DNA from: Cyclobacteriaceae bacterium
GTDB taxonomy: Bacteria; Bacteroidota; Bacteroidia; Cytophagales; Cyclobacteriaceae
Direction of reading: 5' to 3'
Assembly (NCBI GenBank): GCA_012033595.1
Contig: JAAUQL010000009.1
Location: forward strand, 1-64,000
DNA: 64,000 bases
Position numbers and translations under genes: made by a program. The notes under the pieces are model-generated. The model searched no databases. It worked only from the letters and a program-made list of their open reading frames with translations, and was not told where the DNA came from. Of the stretch, positions 13,681 through 23,235 are shown one piece after another. How positions within the stretch are numbered: the first letter of the stretch is position 1; the number at the start of each line of letters is the position of its first letter.

Positions 13681-13702
13681 TCCGGCGCAAGATCATATAT
13701 CA

Positions 13703-13772
13703 GAGATAAATTTTTTTATCTCACCTATCAGCCACTATTCCATTGCAAACCGCATCGGATAGTGGCTTTTTT
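13703..13772 (+). terminator. Tandem hairpins and intrinsic terminator after dnaJ
   Basis: A first hairpin pairs GAGATAAA (13703-13710) with TTTATCTC (13715-13722). The second pairs GCCACTAT (13731-13738) with ATAGTGGC (13759-13766) and is followed by six T. It separates the grpE-dnaJ operon from fecR. Confidence 0.8.
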
Positions 13773-13885
13773 ATGCATGAAAGATCCTACTCAATGCTCA
13801 GCCAGGCATAACCATTAAAAAAAATTTCGATCCCATTTGGGGGTGAAAGCCAGAAGTCTGGTTTTCTCTCTTAATAAACGGAATT

Positions 13886-14887
13886 ATGGAAAATTACCAG
13901 CAACTTGTTGATAAGGAACTCACCGGCAATATAAGCGAAGTGGAAAAAGCCACGCTGGAGACCTGGCGCAAAAAATCCGCCACGAATGAAAGGGCTTATC
14001 GCAGGTTGCACAATGTCTGGCACAATGCACAGCCCTCGATAAGCATAAAGGGGCAAAAAGCCTCCTGGGAAAAACTTTCGCACAGGATAGACTTTTCAGA
14101 TCACCCTTTGATAGAAGAATACAAAAAAGATCCGTTCCGTTTCAGATCGCTATTCAAATATGCCGCAGCCATAGCCCTCGCCATTTCTACATTTTATATT
14201 ATAGCATATTTTAATGCTTCTCCCGAGACTACTGTGGCCACCTCGCAAAACGAGTGGGTGATCAAAAACAATCCGGCAGGACAAAAAAGTGGCATCAACC
14301 TGCCCGATGGCTCGGTTTGCTGGCTCAACTCCGAAAGCGAAATCAGATACCTTTCCAACTTTACAGATAGCGCACGCGATATTTATTTGGTAGGCGAAGC
14401 CTATTTCGAAGTCGCCAAGGATAAATCGAAGCCCTTTAAGGTGAGCACTGCATCTATGGAAGTGGTGGCATTGGGCACGGTGTTCAACATAAGTTCCTTT
14501 CCCGAAGATCTGGCCGAAACAGTGGCTTTGGTAGAAGGCAAAATAGCCGTCGAATACAAAGGGGAGCATGTCGAAGTGATGCCCGGTGAATCAGTGAAGT
14601 TTGATAAAACCCGTGAGACATTGGAAAAGGCTACTATCGATGTTCAAGAAACCATCGCCTGGAAAAATGGTACACTGCAATTCAACGAAGAAACCTATGA
14701 AACGATTTTCTCAAAACTCGAACGATGGTATGGGGTGAACATTACCATATCAGGCGATATGCCTTCCAGGCTCAGGTATAAAAGTAAATTTAAAGACGAG
14801 TCGCTGGAAAATGTGTTGGAAAGCATCCGATATGGCCACGACTTCCAATATGAATTGAATGGAAAAGATGTTGAAATTATGTTTTAA
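13886..14887 (+). CDS. FecR-family anti-sigma factor, no sigma gene beside it
   Basis: An inner-membrane regulator of 333 residues. The cytoplasmic N-terminal domain has the family pattern NISEVEKATLETWRKKSATN at about residues 14-33. One membrane span (YAAAIALAISTFYIIAYF, near residue 95) precedes the periplasmic FecR domain with INLPDGSVCWLNSESEIRYL and LVGEAYFEVAKDKSKPF. A C-terminal STN-like DUF4974 segment (LENVLESI) ends it. In the known system such proteins receive a signal from the STN domain of the SusC transporter and release an ECF sigma factor. Here susC follows after about 125 bases, but no sigma factor gene is present upstream, where dnaJ ends. Confidence 0.92.
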   Translation: MENYQQLVDKELTGNISEVEKATLETWRKKSATNERAYRRLHNVWHNAQPSISIKGQKASWEKLSHRIDFSDHPLIEEYKKDPFRFRSLFKYAAAIALAISTFYIIAYFNASPETTVATSQNEWVIKNNPAGQKSGINLPDGSVCWLNSESEIRYLSNFTDSARDIYLVGEAYFEVAKDKSKPFKVSTASMEVVALGTVFNISSFPEDLAETVALVEGKIAVEYKGEHVEVMPGESVKFDKTRETLEKATIDVQETIAWKNGTLQFNEETYETIFSKLERWYGVNITISGDMPSRLRYKSKFKDESLENVLESIRYGHDFQYELNGKDVEIMF

Positions 14888-14922
14888 AAATAAGTTGCCT
14901 ATGACCTAAAAAAACTTTGACC

Positions 14923-15000
14923 AAAAAACCGGCAGCTACCAACTGCCGGTCTAAAGCACCAGAATTACCAGTTCTGGAAAACTTTCATTTTGTTAATAAA
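14923..15000 (-). ncRNA. Candidate cis-antisense small RNA in the susC leader
   Basis: Read on the minus strand, two hairpins stand in tandem: CCAGAA-ctggtaa-TTCTGG (14977-14959), then CCGGCAG-ttggtag-CTGCCGG (14949-14929) followed directly by TTTTTT. The second is a textbook intrinsic terminator for minus-strand transcription, although no minus-strand gene exists here. Both 7-base loops share TGGTA. A weak minus-strand promoter (TTG at 15037-15035, then TAATTTTA at 15013-15006) would give an RNA of about 75-80 bases ending just upstream of susC. Known cis-antisense RNAs of Bacteroides PULs sit in the same place. On the plus strand the hairpin lacks a T-tract. Confidence 0.4.
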
Positions 15001-15013
15001 ACTCTTTAAAATT

Positions 15014-18000
15014 ATGAAAAACAAAATTCTACAGCAATTAATTATGCTATCGAAATTGATTATTTACGGTACTTTTCTACAGTGTATGTTCATGGGAGTG
15101 TTGTTGGCTTCCAATACCAATGCACAAAAGATCAAAACCGTCCGCGAAGTGTATATTAAACTTGAGTCTTCTAAAGTACCCGTCAAGGAGATTTTCAGGG
15201 AAATTGAATCCACCACCAATTTTCTATTTTCCTTCTATCCCGGTGACTTCAACGAAGATCAATTGATCTCTATCAGCAACAAAAAACAGCTGATTAGTGA
15301 TGTGCTCTTGCAGGTCAGCAAAGAGACTAACCTTTCGTTCAGGCAAATCAACAACAATATCAACGTCAGAAAAAAGGAAGACAGCAAGCCCGAAAGCACC
15401 ATTGAAGTCATCATTGAAGGCATTAAAATAACGGGCAAGGTCGTCTCTGGCGATGACAATGAAGGCCTCCCCGGAGTCAATGTGATCGTGAAAGGCACCA
15501 CGCAGGGCACCGTTACCGATGTGGAAGGAAATTATGAGCTTCAGGTGCCAGACGAAAATTCTATTTTGGTATTCAGCTCGGTGGGCTTTATTTCAGAAGA
15601 AGTGGCTTTGTCAGGAAGGTCTGTGGTAGATATGATGCTCACCCCAGATATCACTGCGTTGGAAGAAATTGTGGTGATAGGCTACGGCTCAAGGTCGAAA
15701 CGCGATATCACTACTTCCATTTCCAACATCCAGTCAGAGGAGATCACCAAGTCGATTGGCATGTCACCTGAGCTCTCGATGCAAGGCCGTATGACCGGTG
15801 TGCAGGTGAGCGGCAACGATGGCAATCCCATGTCGAGACCAACTGTTCGCATCCGGGGTGTCAATACCTGGGGTGTTTCCAGCCCGCTGTACGTCATCGA
15901 TGGTATTCCCATCACAGAATATGGTTCGGGCATTGAAGGACAGGAAGATGCACGTGCTTCAGATGTACGTGGCCCACTCAACATTATGTCGATGATCGAC
16001 CCCAATGATATCGAGTCGATGTCGGTGCTCAAAGATGCTTCTGCCGCTGCCATCTATGGCGTTAGGGCTGCCAATGGCGTTATCCTGATCACCACCAAAA
16101 AGGGCAGGGGCGACACTCCCAAAGTGGAGTTCTCTGGCAGGTTTGGAATCCAGAATGTTACTCAGGAAATTGATGTACTCAATACCAGTCAATATACCCA
16201 GCATGTACAGAATGTGTATGCTTCCGATCCAACAGAGTCGCGCCCGGTCGAAAATGAAGGTTTGTTCGATCCCAATAGCGATAAATATCTCGGCAACAGC
16301 CCTACATATAATTGGCAAGATGCCCTGAAAAACAAAAATGCTCCCGTACAGGATTATTCCATCAGGATTTCTGGCGGCACAGAAAAGACCGATTATTACG
16401 TTTCTGCCGGCTATGCAAGTACCGAAGGAACAATGATTGGCAACTATTTGAACAGGTATTCTGGTTCTTTCAAAATGAACACCCAGATCAACAAGTACAT
16501 TAAGGCTGGTGTAAACTATAGAATAGCTACCGCCGAAGGTTCCGATATCTGGAGTTTCAATTTTTGGCAATCAGCCCAGACTCCACCATGGCAACCCATC
16601 ACTGATTCAATTGGCCCCGGTGGTTATGCCCCGGTAGTAGGTGGACTGGGAGCCGATGGTGTATATCGAAGTGACAAGTTGTATGGGGTAGGCACCCGTA
16701 TCAATGGGATTGGAAGGAACGAATTTACTGATGTTACCTACAAATCTCTTCGAAACATTGGGGTGGCTTATGTAGAATTGGAGCCGGTTTTGGGTCTGAA
16801 GATCAAAGGCTCAGTGAGCCTCGACACCTACTCAAATACCCGTTTCAATTTCTTTAATTTCAAAGGCAACGTATTCGATTATACCCGTGGTGACCCAAGG
16901 TCTTTCGGAGGAGGAACTTCCGTTGGCACGTATGAAGAAAGAGATACCTACAATAATAACCTGATCAAAGAACTGACCATCAACTATCAGAAATCGATCA
17001 AAGATCATAATTTCGATGTGCTGCTTAGTGTTATGGATCAGCAATACAACAGCAAATACAAGGCTGGTTCTACGGAGTATATGACCTCAGTGAAGGAAGA
17101 ATTGCGCAAACTGGGCGGAGAAAATAAATTTACCAATGTGCAATCAGATATGGGAAGATGGGCTTTGGTTGGCCAGTTGGCAAGGATTGGGTACAATTAC
17201 CAGTCAAAGTACTATCTTGATGCCACTGTACGCAGAGATGGAAGTGCACGTTTTGCTCCGGAAAACAGATGGGGTATTTTCCCATCGGTTTCAGGTGCCT
17301 ATCGTATCAGCAATGAGTCTTTCTTTGCTATCCCATGGATTTCAGACTTAAAAATAAGAGCAGGATGGGGTAAACTGGGTAATCAGGAAGTGCGCGACCT
17401 GGCCTACCTGTCGCCTATTGACACACGTCCATCTTTTGCCTGGGGCAACAATGATAACAACGGTTATGGATTCTATAATACAGCTGCCGCTATCTATGGC
17501 ATAGCAAACTCTGATTTGGTTTGGGAATCTACTGCTACCAGCAATGTGGGCTTTGATGCCGTTTTGTTCGATGGTCTCAACATGTCATTTGAATATTATA
17601 ATAAAATTACGGAAGGTATATTACAAGAAGTGACCATACCTACATCTGTGGGTGTTATCGATCAACCTGTCGCCAACATTGCTTCGGTACGCAATTCCGG
17701 TTTTGAGCTTTCGCTAAATTATACCAAAAATATTGGCGATTTTATTTTCAATGTTGGGGGCAATTTTACCACAGTGAAAAACAGTGTAGAAAAAACTTAT
17801 AATGATATTCCTCTGTGGACTATTGAAGAAGGATATCCGATCAACTATATCCGTGGGTTTAAAAAGGTTGGCACATTCCAAACTCAGGAAGAAGTGGACG
17901 AATGGCTTGCAAACTATAAGGACGACAGTTATCAAAGTGCCAAAGTGGCTCCTGGTGATTTTTATTTTGAAGATGTACGCAGCGCACCAGAAGGAGAAAA

Positions 18001-18526
18001 TGAATTTTACTCTGATAAGCAGGATTCTTTGATCAGTTTTTACGATCAGGTTTATTTAGGCAAGACCATACCCGGCTTCTTTTATGGCATCAATCTGGGT
18101 GCACAATGGAAAGGTTTTGACTTCACGGCACAATTTACCGGTGTTGGCGATGTACAAAAATACAATGAGGTAAAAGCCGCCATGGAATATACCCCCGGAA
18201 TGGGCAACAACCTGTCAACGACCATCTTGGGTTCATGGACGGCAGAAAATCCAAATACAGACTTGCCCCGCGTAATAGCGGGAGATCCGGCTAATAATTT
18301 CCGCAGATCAGATCATTTTGTGGAGAGCGGTGCTTATTTCAGAGCGTCTTACATGGCTCTCGGCTATACTTTTCCACAAATCGAGTCGTTGGGTATTTCC
18401 AACTTGCGCATGTATGTAGGTTCGTCTAACCTGTTCACCATCACCCCCTATTCAGGGCTTGATCCGGAAAGCGATAACTATCCGACCCCACAGGCCTTCT
18501 TTATGGGAGTTAATCTGAGATTTTAA
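15014..18526 (+). CDS. susC: SusC/RagA-family TonB-linked outer-membrane transporter with STN domain
   Basis: An outer-membrane beta-barrel of 1170 residues that imports oligosaccharides using TonB energy. After a signal peptide come a secretin/TonB short N-terminal (STN) domain (PVKEIFREIESTTNFLFSFY), a carboxypeptidase-regulatory-like domain (ITGKVVSGDDNEGLPGVNV), a TonB-box/plug segment (LEEIVVIGYGSRSKRDITTS), the plug and the barrel, ending MGVNLRF. The STN domain is the part known to signal to FecR, encoded just upstream. I start at MKNKILQQ; the ORF track starts eight codons earlier. susD follows after 30 bases. The GH9 enzyme downstream suggests beta-1,4-glucan fragments as substrate. 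Confidence 0.96.
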   Translation: MKNKILQQLIMLSKLIIYGTFLQCMFMGVLLASNTNAQKIKTVREVYIKLESSKVPVKEIFREIESTTNFLFSFYPGDFNEDQLISISNKKQLISDVLLQVSKETNLSFRQINNNINVRKKEDSKPESTIEVIIEGIKITGKVVSGDDNEGLPGVNVIVKGTTQGTVTDVEGNYELQVPDENSILVFSSVGFISEEVALSGRSVVDMMLTPDITALEEIVVIGYGSRSKRDITTSISNIQSEEITKSIGMSPELSMQGRMTGVQVSGNDGNPMSRPTVRIRGVNTWGVSSPLYVIDGIPITEYGSGIEGQEDARASDVRGPLNIMSMIDPNDIESMSVLKDASAAAIYGVRAANGVILITTKKGRGDTPKVEFSGRFGIQNVTQEIDVLNTSQYTQHVQNVYASDPTESRPVENEGLFDPNSDKYLGNSPTYNWQDALKNKNAPVQDYSIRISGGTEKTDYYVSAGYASTEGTMIGNYLNRYSGSFKMNTQINKYIKAGVNYRIATAEGSDIWSFNFWQSAQTPPWQPITDSIGPGGYAPVVGGLGADGVYRSDKLYGVGTRINGIGRNEFTDVTYKSLRNIGVAYVELEPVLGLKIKGSVSLDTYSNTRFNFFNFKGNVFDYTRGDPRSFGGGTSVGTYEERDTYNNNLIKELTINYQKSIKDHNFDVLLSVMDQQYNSKYKAGSTEYMTSVKEELRKLGGENKFTNVQSDMGRWALVGQLARIGYNYQSKYYLDATVRRDGSARFAPENRWGIFPSVSGAYRISNESFFAIPWISDLKIRAGWGKLGNQEVRDLAYLSPIDTRPSFAWGNNDNNGYGFYNTAAAIYGIANSDLVWESTATSNVGFDAVLFDGLNMSFEYYNKITEGILQEVTIPTSVGVIDQPVANIASVRNSGFELSLNYTKNIGDFIFNVGGNFTTVKNSVEKTYNDIPLWTIEEGYPINYIRGFKKVGTFQTQEEVDEWLANYKDDSYQSAKVAPGDFYFEDVRSAPEGENEFYSDKQDSLISFYDQVYLGKTIPGFFYGINLGAQWKGFDFTAQFTGVGDVQKYNEVKAAMEYTPGMGNNLSTTILGSWTAENPNTDLPRVIAGDPANNFRRSDHFVESGAYFRASYMALGYTFPQIESLGISNLRMYVGSSNLFTITPYSGLDPESDNYPTPQAFFMGVNLRF

Positions 18527-18556: not shown

Positions 18557-20155
18557 ATGAAAAACAATAAATATATATTCACCCTGCTGGCATTTTGCGG
18601 CATCATGTTGTTGAATGCTTGTGAAGAAAACCTGGAGATAAAACCAGCCAAGGAATTGGCTAGCAATTACTTTGAAACTGAAGACCAAATGATGCGCGCT
18701 GTTGGCGGTATTTACGCTTCGCTCGCAGAAATTTACGGCCCGCAGCTCAATGACGCCACACAATATCCTATGTGGTTGCTCCCAGGCGACGATCTCACTT
18801 CCGACGGTTCCGGAAATACATTTGAAACATTTTCCGGACTCAACGGATCCAATGGCCGGGTAGAAGGAATGTGGAAAAGGTATTATCAGACGGTAGCGAG
18901 AGCAAACGTGGTGTTGGAAAAAATTAACACTCCGGAAGTTTCGGCAATATTTACGACACCCGGTCTACGGAATGCCAATGAAGGCGAAGCATTGTTTTTG
19001 AGGTCTTGGGTATTTTACAACCTTTGGGATAAATATCGAAAAGCCCCTGTTCAGGATGAGAGGATTGAATTGATCAGTGATGCCATTTTACCCCCATCAG
19101 AAGATTTTGAATTGTTGGACAACGCGATAGCTTCATTAGAGAAAGCAGCAGAATTGTTGCCAGCTTCATGGGATCAGAATAACCTGGGAAGGATCACCAA
19201 AGATGGCGCTTATGGCCTGCTGGTAAAATGCTATGTGCTGCGAGCCTGCTACAATGGCAAAAATAACGAGGATTATGGCAAAGCAATTGCGGCATTCAAC
19301 AAAATTTCAGAAAGCCGTCAATTGGTCAACTTTGGTGAGAATTTCGACTACCGATACGAAAACAATGCAGAGTCCCTATTCGAATATCAGGCAAGTCATG
19401 CTCCTGCACAAGACAATGCCTGGCTGCCCAACAGCTTTGGTGGAGATGTCGGACAAATGGGTGCCTTTTACCATTACTATAATACCCACTGGGGAAACTA
19501 CAGCTCAGGTATAATAGGCCCAACACAGAAATTGGTTGGCGCTTTTGAAGAAGGCGATCCTCGAATAGCAGAGACATTGACCGACAATGCCGACAACCTA
19601 AATTGGAAGCTTTGGTGGGTTGCGCCTACCTGGGACAAATTCAATGGTTATCAAATGGTCAAATACATCAAAGGCGAGCGTGGCAATTTATATGACAAGA
19701 CCTGGAAAGTTTCATCAGGCAATAACCCACGTATATTGCGTCTTGGTGATGTGAAACTGGCCGTAGCCGAAGCATACCTTGCTACCGGCGATGCTGGAAA
19801 TGCCCTGAAGCAAGTTAACGACATCAGGGAAAGGGCACGGAAATCTACCCCGGACGGCGTGGAATCGGCTGTACCCGCTGCGCTTGGCGCGGTGACCATG
19901 CAAGATATCATGGATGAACGATTAGTGGAACTTGCCGGTGAAGAAGGACATCGCTGGACAGATTTGCGCAGGTGGCATGCCGCCGGCTATATCAACCTGG
20001 CCTCATGGTCAGCCACTGATTTTGGCTTCCCTTCGAAATACGATGCCAGTTTGTTCAAGTTTGATGTGAACAAACACCTCTTGTATCCCATACCGGTGTC
20101 TGAGCTGAATAGCAACCCGGAAATGGCAGCTTCAGGCAATAACCCTGGATATTGA
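18557..20155 (+). CDS. susD: SusD/RagB-family surface glycan-binding lipoprotein
   Basis: A 532-residue lipoprotein. The signal peptide ends LLNACEEN, with the lipobox cysteine near residue 22. A TPR-rich SusD fold follows, with the SusD-like N-terminal pattern NYFETEDQMMRAVGGIYASL and the RagB C-terminal segments LGDVKLAVAEAYLATGDAG and EERLVELAGEEGHRW-like sequence (DERLVELAGEEGHRWTDLRR). It caps the SusC barrel and delivers bound oligosaccharide. It is cotranscribed with susC (30-base gap), and a strong terminator follows. Confidence 0.96.
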   Translation: MKNNKYIFTLLAFCGIMLLNACEENLEIKPAKELASNYFETEDQMMRAVGGIYASLAEIYGPQLNDATQYPMWLLPGDDLTSDGSGNTFETFSGLNGSNGRVEGMWKRYYQTVARANVVLEKINTPEVSAIFTTPGLRNANEGEALFLRSWVFYNLWDKYRKAPVQDERIELISDAILPPSEDFELLDNAIASLEKAAELLPASWDQNNLGRITKDGAYGLLVKCYVLRACYNGKNNEDYGKAIAAFNKISESRQLVNFGENFDYRYENNAESLFEYQASHAPAQDNAWLPNSFGGDVGQMGAFYHYYNTHWGNYSSGIIGPTQKLVGAFEEGDPRIAETLTDNADNLNWKLWWVAPTWDKFNGYQMVKYIKGERGNLYDKTWKVSSGNNPRILRLGDVKLAVAEAYLATGDAGNALKQVNDIRERARKSTPDGVESAVPAALGAVTMQDIMDERLVELAGEEGHRWTDLRRWHAAGYINLASWSATDFGFPSKYDASLFKFDVNKHLLYPIPVSELNSNPEMAASGNNPGY

Positions 20156-20247: not shown

Positions 20248-23235
20248 ATGATGAAACCATTGACTAAAGCAAACTTTTTCTTGTGTCTGGCAGCCCTTGT
20301 TGTGCTGTTTTCATGCGTTTATGCAAAAGCATCTGATGTGGTCGAAGTCAGGCCGCTCACCAATCAGATTATTATGGTGCATTTCGACGATGGATATGCC
20401 ACTTACCATAAAATGGGTCAAAAAAGATCAAACGAAACGGTAACCGTAATACCTCTCGACCAAAGCAAAGCGTCACTGGCAGCAAGTTACAGTATCACAA
20501 GCCCCGATGATCCTGCTTTTTCCTCAGCCGCCAACCCTACCCAGGTAGCCAGAAAGACGAAGGGAACCGAGTTTACCTGGATATGTGAATGGGATGCTAG
20601 TGTGAACGGATGTGTGAATAAAGTCCATGACCATGTCAAAGAACACTGGGTGTATATTACGTTGCCAAATCCCATGAAATCCGGCAAAACCTACCTCATT
20701 CAAACCGGGTCGCTGGCCGGAAACGGCAACTCCTGGACTATCGACTACAATGATCATAGCACCCGGTCAGATGCGGTGCATGTAAACATACTGGGTTACA
20801 ATCCATCGGCACCGGCCAAGTTTGGCTACGTCTATCAATGGATGGGTGATGGGGGAGGTCTCGATCTGTCTTCCTTTGCCAACAATGATTTTTATCTGGT
20901 TAATCAAGCCACCGGGTCAGTGGACTTTTCAGGCAAGATAGCCTTCAGAAAATCCGCAAGCAACGACGAAACATCACAGACTGGCGACACACCTGACAAT
21001 AATTTCCTAGGTGCAGAAGTATATGAATGTGATTTTAGTACTTTCAATACAGAAGGAGAATATGTCCTCTCTGTTCAGGACATTGGCTGCTCTTTACCTT
21101 TCAAAATAAAAAATGATGTATTGCGCGATGCACACTACAATGCTGCCCGGGCTCTCTTCCACAACCGCTCCGGCATAGCCCTCGCACAACCCTATACCGA
21201 TTTTACCCGACCGGCACCCCACAATCCAAACAGCACGCCGGGATTTGCCGGAAAGCTTAAATATACCAGTTCTCGCTTTGTGGACTGGAAAAGTGAAGAC
21301 CATAGCGCCGAAGACAAGCCTGCCATAGAAGCGGGTATCAAAGGCGAATTGCCCACCTGGGGATGGTACCAGGATGCAGGCGATTGGGATGGATATTTTT
21401 CGCATCTGCGTGTGCCGGTATTGCTTATGCTCAGCTATGAACTCACACCCGAACACTATGCCGATGGCGACCTCAATATTCCTGAAAGCAACAACGGACT
21501 TTCTGATATGCTGGACGAAGCCCGCTGGTTGATACACTATTTCCAGCGTACCCGTAAGTTGATCAAAGACCAGGGTTATGGTACGGGTGGTATTGGCGCA
21601 CGGGTGGCTGGGGATTGGTTTGGCAGCGATACAGGTCCACAAGACGTAGGCACACCCTCATACAAAGATACAGACCGTACCTGGATTGTCTCTGGCGAAG
21701 ACCCATTCACCACCTATTTCTATGCCGGCTTATCAGCGCATTTTGCCACCATGCTCAAGAAGGCAGGAGCATCAGACCCGGACGGTATCAATTGGGAAAC
21801 CGAAGCCAGAGAAGCTTTTATATGGGCGGAAAATAATCTAAAGCCTGACGACACCAATCCGGACAAGGTTCATGGGCTGCGAATTTCAAACTACAGATTG
21901 TATGCAGCCGCGGCCTTATTCAGGTTGACAGGCGAGCAGGCCTTTCATGACCAGTTTGCCCTCGATGCTTCCGGCATCAGCAATGCTTCCGTATTTGCAG
22001 AAGACCAGCGTTGGGGAGCCTATGTCTATGCCCTGTTGCCCGATTCGCTACGTACCAATACAAGCTTACATAGCAAAATCGTGAATGCTGCACTGTCGTC
22101 AGCTGACCAAAAAACCGTCAAAAGCATCGAAGCACGAGCCTGCAGGTTTGCTGGCGATTTCTCTTTCCCCATGCTGATCGGTCAGGCTACCACCCCCTGG
22201 GTTTTTGAAGCAATGGTAGGCTACAAACTTGCCCTGGATAATGATCCGGCAAAAGCGGAGGAGTATCTGAAAAACATTCACACCACTGCCGATTATTTTC
22301 TTGGATGCAATCCGCTAAATATGGTATGGATGACCGGAGTGGGCGTGAAAAACCCGGGTCGAATTTTCCACATGGACTCCTGGTATAATGGCCGGAAAAA
22401 TGAAATGGTGCCGGGTATCACGCCCTATGGCCCCTGGCGCGATCAGCCCACCAGTGCCCTGGGACCGTGGGATGTGCAGTGGCCGTACAAAACCATCAGC
22501 CCGACACAAATCAACAAATGGCCAGGACATGAGCGCTGGTTTGGCAACTATACCTGCCCACTCAATGCAGAGTTTACCATTCATCAAAACACGGTGTACA
22601 GCGCCATTACCTATGGATTTTTGTCAGCGGTATCTGATGGGAGTTTCCAGGCCAATCGCCGGCCTACAGTAACCATTAAAACCCCAACACAAGGTGGCAC
22701 CACAGCAGACACGGTCGATATTACCGTGCAGGCTCAAGATCCCAATGGCGTAGCTGATATTGCCTGGGTGGAATACTATGATGGTTGGCACAAGATCGGA
22801 GAAAGTACCAGCGCGCCTTTTTCATTCCAATGGACTCAAGCCCCCAATGGCAACATAAAGCTGAATGCCAGGATTATGGACAAACGTGGGATGGTGAATT
22901 ATTCCGATACGGTAACTTTCAGTAATACCTCGGTGATCACCGGCTTCCACGTGGTACCAGTCGATGAATTTGACTTAAAAGTTTACCCAAACCCCGCAGA
23001 TCAAAAGCTGGTTTTTGACTATCAACTGCAATCTGAATCAGAGGTAAAAATCATCTTGTACGATATGTCGGGGAGTGTGGTCAGTGCACATGACATTATA
23101 AATATGCCGGGTAAAAACCAATACCACTATCATTTGCCGACGCCCTTGCGGCAGGGGATGTACATTTATAAGTTCAGTGCCAAATCCGAAGGAGAGTCCA
23201 CGGACAAAACCGGAAAAGTGGTTTTTTTGCGCTAG
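20248..23235 (+). CDS. Secreted GH9 endoglucanase with T9SS sorting domain
   Basis: A 995-residue modular enzyme predicted to cleave beta-1,4-glucan (cellulose-type or mixed-linkage). After a signal peptide comes a CelD_N immunoglobulin-like domain (HVNILGYNPSAPAKFGYVYQ, about residue 180). The GH9 (alpha/alpha)6 barrel has the catalytic-base motif QDAGDWDGYFSHLRV near residue 375 and the C-terminal acid segment CPLNAEFTIHQNTVYSAITY near residue 770. A second Ig-like domain follows (TPTQGGTTADTVDITVQAQD). A type A T9SS sorting domain (LKVYPNPADQKLVFDYQL) closes the protein at about residue 910. It is therefore exported through the Por system, of which PorD is encoded 4 kb away, and completes the fecR-susCD locus. 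Confidence 0.93.
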   Translation: MMKPLTKANFFLCLAALVVLFSCVYAKASDVVEVRPLTNQIIMVHFDDGYATYHKMGQKRSNETVTVIPLDQSKASLAASYSITSPDDPAFSSAANPTQVARKTKGTEFTWICEWDASVNGCVNKVHDHVKEHWVYITLPNPMKSGKTYLIQTGSLAGNGNSWTIDYNDHSTRSDAVHVNILGYNPSAPAKFGYVYQWMGDGGGLDLSSFANNDFYLVNQATGSVDFSGKIAFRKSASNDETSQTGDTPDNNFLGAEVYECDFSTFNTEGEYVLSVQDIGCSLPFKIKNDVLRDAHYNAARALFHNRSGIALAQPYTDFTRPAPHNPNSTPGFAGKLKYTSSRFVDWKSEDHSAEDKPAIEAGIKGELPTWGWYQDAGDWDGYFSHLRVPVLLMLSYELTPEHYADGDLNIPESNNGLSDMLDEARWLIHYFQRTRKLIKDQGYGTGGIGARVAGDWFGSDTGPQDVGTPSYKDTDRTWIVSGEDPFTTYFYAGLSAHFATMLKKAGASDPDGINWETEAREAFIWAENNLKPDDTNPDKVHGLRISNYRLYAAAALFRLTGEQAFHDQFALDASGISNASVFAEDQRWGAYVYALLPDSLRTNTSLHSKIVNAALSSADQKTVKSIEARACRFAGDFSFPMLIGQATTPWVFEAMVGYKLALDNDPAKAEEYLKNIHTTADYFLGCNPLNMVWMTGVGVKNPGRIFHMDSWYNGRKNEMVPGITPYGPWRDQPTSALGPWDVQWPYKTISPTQINKWPGHERWFGNYTCPLNAEFTIHQNTVYSAITYGFLSAVSDGSFQANRRPTVTIKTPTQGGTTADTVDITVQAQDPNGVADIAWVEYYDGWHKIGESTSAPFSFQWTQAPNGNIKLNARIMDKRGMVNYSDTVTFSNTSVITGFHVVPVDEFDLKVYPNPADQKLVFDYQLQSESEVKIILYDMSGSVVSAHDIINMPGKNQYHYHLPTPLRQGMYIYKFSAKSEGESTDKTGKVVFLR

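Follow-up and report, generated by a model that had tools for sequence, protein, structure and literature searches.

A predicted antisense RNA of about 80 bases, transcribed from a promoter in the start of susC, probably holds the transporter down and recurs at FecR-type susC genes of the Bacteroidota

Introduction

Whether an antisense RNA is encoded opposite the leader of a susC gene in a bacterium of the Cyclobacteriaceae lineage was the question raised by the locus described here. In Bacteroides, RNA-seq has revealed RNAs antisense to susC; how general they are and what they do is under debate. The window, which is the whole stretch of 64,000 nucleotides that was analysed (contig JAAUQL010000009.1), carried a gene of the FecR family of anti-sigma factors (13886..14887; Pfam FecR 57 bits, FecR_C 62 bits), a susC homologue for a TonB-dependent outer-membrane transporter (15014..18526; Pfam Plug 60.5 bits, CarbopepD_reg_2), a susD homologue (18557..20155; Pfam SusD_RagB 108 bits) and a gene for a glycoside hydrolase family 9 (GH9) protein with a secretion-sorting tail (20248..23235; Pfam Glyco_hydro_9, CelD_N, Por_Secre_tail), the substrate of which is likely beta-glucan. 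All of these neighbours were on the plus strand. An earlier note on the window had placed a possible DonS-type cis-antisense RNA opposite the 5' end of susC and had called the PUL FecR-controlled. Such control is presumed; no ECF sigma gene (fecI) adjoined the window's fecR (13681-13886), and the genes upstream were grpE and dnaJ, with dnaJ as the immediate neighbour. In most other fecR genes of the genome, a sigma gene was located about 1 kb upstream. The genome contained 31 FecR matches, 30 of them above the family cut-off, and 72 Plug matches.

Results

The minus strand between fecR and susC formed two successive hairpins, located 37-91 bases 5' of the susC ATG (15014), and their 7-base loops had TGGTA in common. 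The 5' hairpin of the predicted RNA (14977..14959, minus strand) had the form CCAGAA-CTGGTAA-TTCTGG. The hairpin downstream of it (14950..14928, minus strand; stem ACCGGCAG/CTGCCGGT, loop TTGGTAG) was followed directly after CTGCCGGT by six T (14928..14923), and together they made up an intrinsic terminator at 14923..14950. No minus-strand gene that could be terminated ended there, since both flanking genes were on the plus strand. In all of these points the description in the earlier note was borne out. A simple terminator scan made no call at 14950..14923, because its T-count began after A-T pairs that consumed two T. Together with the minus-strand promoter described below, the terminator would delimit an RNA some 80 bases long (15002..14923, minus strand), in agreement with the 75-80 bases from about 15000 to 14923 that had been proposed. 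Minimum-energy folding, suggested in the earlier note as a check, gave -33 kcal/mol (z -3.1) for 14910-15045 of the minus strand and -26.8 kcal/mol (z -3.9) for the predicted RNA itself, with none of 200 shuffled sequences equally stable. The plus strand also folded well (z -4.0), as expected of any inverted repeat, so that the strand could not be named from folding alone.

Every pair of the terminator helix was kept (100% paired) across five close homologues, and at three pairs a change on one side was compensated on the other. The 5' hairpin was 70% paired in a MAFFT alignment and its per-pair covariation was weak owing to misalignment, and it was intact by eye in the unaligned sequences of the window's subfamily; covariation support was counted for the terminator helix only. 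Neither the window nor 19 related loci contained an Rfam match at or above the gathering score of the family concerned. A match to manA-II was sub-threshold, and the rteR sRNA family (RF04181) was rejected as well: its weak match to 14924-15030 of the minus strand scored 24.4 bits (E 0.2), far below the 72 bits set as its gathering score.

A DNA search that used the leader as query brought up paralogous leaders, both elsewhere in this genome and among genus relatives. In these leaders the sequence of the stem varied between loci, while the A-run before it, which is the T-run of the minus strand, was kept. Loss of the hairpin or the T-run at orthologous loci had been named in the earlier note as evidence against the RNA; both were retained. 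A scan looked for stable hairpins with a T-run behind them, at most 150 bases from the susC ATG. It gave a minus-strand terminator at 22 of the 25 fecR-susC junctions of the genome and a plus-strand one at a single junction (1/25). The same scan gave 15 minus-strand and 26 plus-strand calls in 283 control genes, a mean of 0.9 and a maximum of 3 in shuffled leaders, and none at 19 TonB-plug genes without fecR. At five loci (L024, L031, L032, L036 and L041) the fecR or susC frames were broken near the start, which may reflect assembly errors or pseudogenes.

The primary sigma factor of Bacteroidota recognizes TTTG near -33 and TAnnTTTG at -7 (PMC7366714, PMC9723704), and a scan for sigma-70 promoters was discarded since that consensus is irrelevant for the phylum. 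On the minus strand of the window, a TTG (15037..15035), a 20-base spacer and the -7 box TAATTTTA (15014..15007) followed one another, with the -7 box over the susC start codon and the TTG in susC codon 8 (CAA). The earlier note had called this match weak, with a 21-base spacer; its TTG and box held, but the spacer was one base shorter and the match was better than described and weak only at the final position of the -7 box, which had A in place of the consensus G. Across the 80 junctions of the genus, the context YAAA(A/G)TTATG at the susC ATG was the minus-strand TAnnTTTR over the start codon. The box was present at 59 of these 80 junctions and at 3 of 283 other genes, with a p of about 6e-46 that, like the other p-values from this set, overstates independence because the junctions are paralogues from few genomes. 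Junctions and controls alike were treated by a first-ATG rule, which replaced a rule favouring AAAnnT and left the result unchanged.

The -33 element left its mark on the coding sequence. Where codon 8 of susC encoded Leu, CTA was used in 25 of 27 cases, as against 68 of 235 at neighbouring codons and 63 of 498 at codons 20-70 (p about 1e-10); where it encoded Gln, CAA was used in 25 of 25 cases and in 125 of 236 at later codons. On the minus strand, CTA and CAA alike give T(T/A)G; by this comparison codon 8 is under a synonymous constraint, against normal codon usage, that keeps the -33 TWG. Additionally, the two promoter elements varied together (17:6 and 6:17, p 0.003): TTG at -33 went with a final A in the -7 box and TAG with a final G. 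It looks as though a weaker -33 element were offset by a better -7 box and vice versa and the strengths were balanced. The promoter and the terminator co-occurred at junctions above chance (p 5e-6). The codon-8 signature was limited to the window's genus; Parabacteroides and Bacteroides did not show it.

A functional RNA stem tolerates G-U pairs, which turn into A-C mismatches when the opposite strand is read. The count covered stems with G-C pairs at their ends; G-U pairs numbered 44 on the minus strand and 5 on the plus strand in the genus, 17 and 2 in Parabacteroides faecis, 14 and 2 in Parachryseolinea and 14 and 0 in Pedobacter. The sum over the four groups was 89 against 9, compared with about 1.6 to 1 in shuffled sequence; a count without the G-C boundary gave 71 against 8, but the A-run had swollen it. 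This bias toward the minus strand argued that the hairpin is maintained as a minus-strand RNA. On the plus strand, an A-run of at least five bases lay upstream of the stem in 54 of 74 cases and a T-run of at least five downstream of it in 1 of 74. The minus-strand loops were rich in YUNR U-turns (44 of 91, against 23.8 +/- 3.9 in shuffled loops, in a post hoc test). YUNR has been reported as a loop motif through which antisense RNAs achieve loop-loop recognition (PMC4485353). Both window loops, TTGGTAG and CTGGTAA, contained YUNR, which accounted for their common TGGTA.

The same anatomy was found elsewhere in the phylum. The terminator and the exact -7 box were present at 15 and 14 of 18 fecR-susC junctions in Parabacteroides faecis, at 13 and 11 of 17 in Pedobacter insulae and, in two genomes of the genus Bacteroides, at 10 and 10 of 15 and at 12 and 7 of 15. 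Parachryseolinea silvisoli had the terminator at 9 and the -7 box at 6 of 14 junctions, Arenibacter had the same promoter and terminator anatomy at 4 of 5, and two Chitinophagaceae genomes had the same combination. This sample consisted of chosen SusC-type junctions, as the best FecR matches spread over the phylum were mostly not fecR-susC junctions. The comparison shows the same putative antisense switch, built into the gene, recurring across the phylum Bacteroidota. In several Bacteroides and Parabacteroides leaders (L355, L358, L379, L368 and L227), a second inverted repeat similar to GCTTGTTTGGCGACAAGC lay between the terminator and susC. The genomes of Parabacteroides faecis (G176) and G002 each contained about 80 FecR matches and had unusually many FecR-type PULs.

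Between fecR and the terminator, the plus strand of the window carried a GCCTATG motif (14897..14909) with a tiny ORF, ATG-ACC-TAA (14901-14909), and both the motif and the early in-frame stop were conserved across loci. Tiny ORFs were seen at the window, at L288, L113, L258-L277, L244 and L250 and at many loci of the genus. In the class with GC[CT]TATG, 38 of 41 cases had an in-frame stop no more than six codons on; the median was 1 codon, compared with medians of 13 and 16 in the other two frames (p 5e-10 and 5e-12). A second class encoded a peptide of 4-11 residues ending in [ND][ST][ST] at 25 of the 80 genus loci (0.04 in shuffles), with 25 different combinations of codons and stop in the 25 loci, that is, with synonymous variation. 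The two classes occurred 2 and 0 times among the 283 control genes. No description of a tiny ORF between fecR and susC was found in the open-licence papers searched, and the conserved ORF appears to be undescribed so far. At seven loci (L026, L130, L140, L144, L171, L177 and L179), GCCTATG lay inside the terminator stem (AGCCTATG...CATAGGCT), which would enable the antisense RNA to base-pair with this motif at its own or at other loci.

Discussion

The promoter, the terminator, the strand, the conservation and the specificity for fecR-type susC genes are supported, as predicted properties of this RNA, by the comparison of sequences. The RNA itself can be expected with considerable assurance to exist. 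In the mechanism that we propose, the primary sigma factor would direct transcription of a cis-antisense RNA of about 80 bases from a promoter within the start codon and the first eight codons of susC; transcription would head away from susC, cross the entire leader and end at the terminator just before fecR, and the RNA would fold as two hairpins with U-turn loops. The sense transcript of susC is assumed to overlap it. We infer that either the RNA pairs with the leader of the susC mRNA or antisense transcription collides with that of susC, and that susC-susD would be kept low until a FecR-type signal arrives, in analogy to DonS in Bacteroides fragilis. By this analogy the RNA probably holds the susC transporter down, and repression in cis is a reasonable, if less secure, expectation; it is not guaranteed, because some pairs of antisense RNA and PUL in B. 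thetaiotaomicron are positively correlated (PMC10994844). As a whole, a cis-antisense RNA that starts from the susC-embedded promoter and acts on susC-susD is the best explanation, and we hold it with good confidence.

The act of transcription, instead of the RNA, could be what matters, with polymerase leaving the susC start codon interfering and the terminator protecting fecR. A promoter on the start codon and a terminator before fecR form a layout that suits interference with insulation, and the stem sequence is free to drift; however, the structure exceeds what a terminator needs, since the window's subfamily has a second hairpin and U-turn loops are commoner than chance predicts, and this alternative is possible but unlikely. 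Bacteroidota commonly show pervasive antisense transcription (PMC9723704, PMC7366714), which favours the view that an AT-rich start merely resembles a promoter and yields a functionless transcript, as does the closeness of TAATTTTA to an A-rich translation start context. That context was rare elsewhere (3/283), though, codon 8 was synonymously constrained and the terminator was retained across orders of Bacteroidota, which makes transcriptional noise improbable.

It is very improbable that the hairpins serve the susC messenger, as a leader attenuator or a protein-binding site, and that symmetry alone accounts for the signs of a minus-strand RNA. Folding of the plus strand is just as good and the region lies within the presumed susC leader, but the A-run stands 5' of the stem (54/74) with a T-run 3' of it nearly absent (1/74), pairs other than Watson-Crick appear as G-U when the minus strand is read and as A-C when the plus strand is, and the hairpin co-occurs with the minus-strand promoter. 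Very little probability also falls to the conserved susC start being a target of trans-acting sRNAs like FopS, which bind susC translation starts in B. thetaiotaomicron (PMC11697453), and not a promoter: the conserved positions coincide with the -33 and -7 boxes, which are correctly spaced, offset each other in strength and point at a terminator.

More tentatively, and at somewhat less than an even chance, the FecR-type susC genes of the whole phylum may be controlled by one ancestral module that combines the start-codon antisense RNA with a minimal upstream ORF located between fecR and the antisense terminator. This ORF, either GCYUAUG and a stop 0-6 codons on or a 4-11-residue peptide ending in [N/D][S/T]S, would be translated and would couple to or sense susC translation. 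The tiny ORF may be an unrecognised control element. The signature, which consists of the -7 box on the start codon, the -33 box in codon 8, the terminator in the fecR-susC gap and the strand-biased G-U pairs, would allow such RNAs to be called from genome sequence alone throughout the phylum. It argues for selection on susC antisense RNAs and against noise, shows them, as predicted RNAs, in environmental glycan degraders, and lends itself to clean tests, as synonymous changes can take the promoter away.

Among known systems, the copy-control antisense RNA CopA of plasmid R1, in the CopA/tap/repA system, has a U-turn loop, and a tiny ORF for a leader peptide lies in the sense leader. The locus described here resembles it in both features. 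The genes are different, the tiny ORF of the window lies beyond the 3' end of the predicted antisense RNA, and coupling would be conjecture. FopS and GibS of Bacteroides are short, end in an intrinsic terminator and act on susC translation starts (PMC11697453), as the window RNA would; unlike the latter, which would be cis-encoded and fully complementary to the leader, they are encoded elsewhere and act in trans via a short seed (R1/R1'). FopS sRNAs of B. thetaiotaomicron bind the regions of susC translation starts (PMC11697453).

PUL-associated antisense RNAs are experimentally known in Bacteroides (PMC7366714, PMC10994844). In B. thetaiotaomicron 32 of them were mapped, with both negative and positive correlations with their PULs (PMC10994844), and DonS of Bacteroides fragilis is reported to repress its own PUL (PMC7366714). 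The DonS family is cis-encoded opposite the 5' end of susC, as is the window RNA (15002..14923, minus strand, against the susC ATG at 15014), and has a primary-sigma-type promoter and an intrinsic terminator, both of which are predicted for the window RNA. DonS-type RNAs are 78-128 nt long (PMC7366714), and the window RNA, with the end points and the length of 80 nt predicted from the promoter box and the T-run, would fit this type; the predicted lengths across the genus had a median of 87 and a range of 59-151. The window locus also has the same anatomy of terminator and -7 box as the fecR-susC junctions of the genus Bacteroides. It differs from DonS in its lineage, in the -33 element locked in codon 8 and in its GH9 PUL, which likely serves a plant or algal beta-glucan, whereas the PUL of DonS is for mucosal glycans. 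The DonS-type cis-antisense RNA proposed in the earlier note gains support from the conserved minus-strand promoter and terminator, their co-occurrence and the strand-specific G-U pairs. A kind of RNA experimentally known from Bacteroides would in this way be extended by sequence comparison to the Cyclobacteriaceae lineage, and the anatomy and position of the window RNA, set against the published description of DonS, support its assignment as a predicted DonS-type cis-antisense RNA outside Bacteroides.
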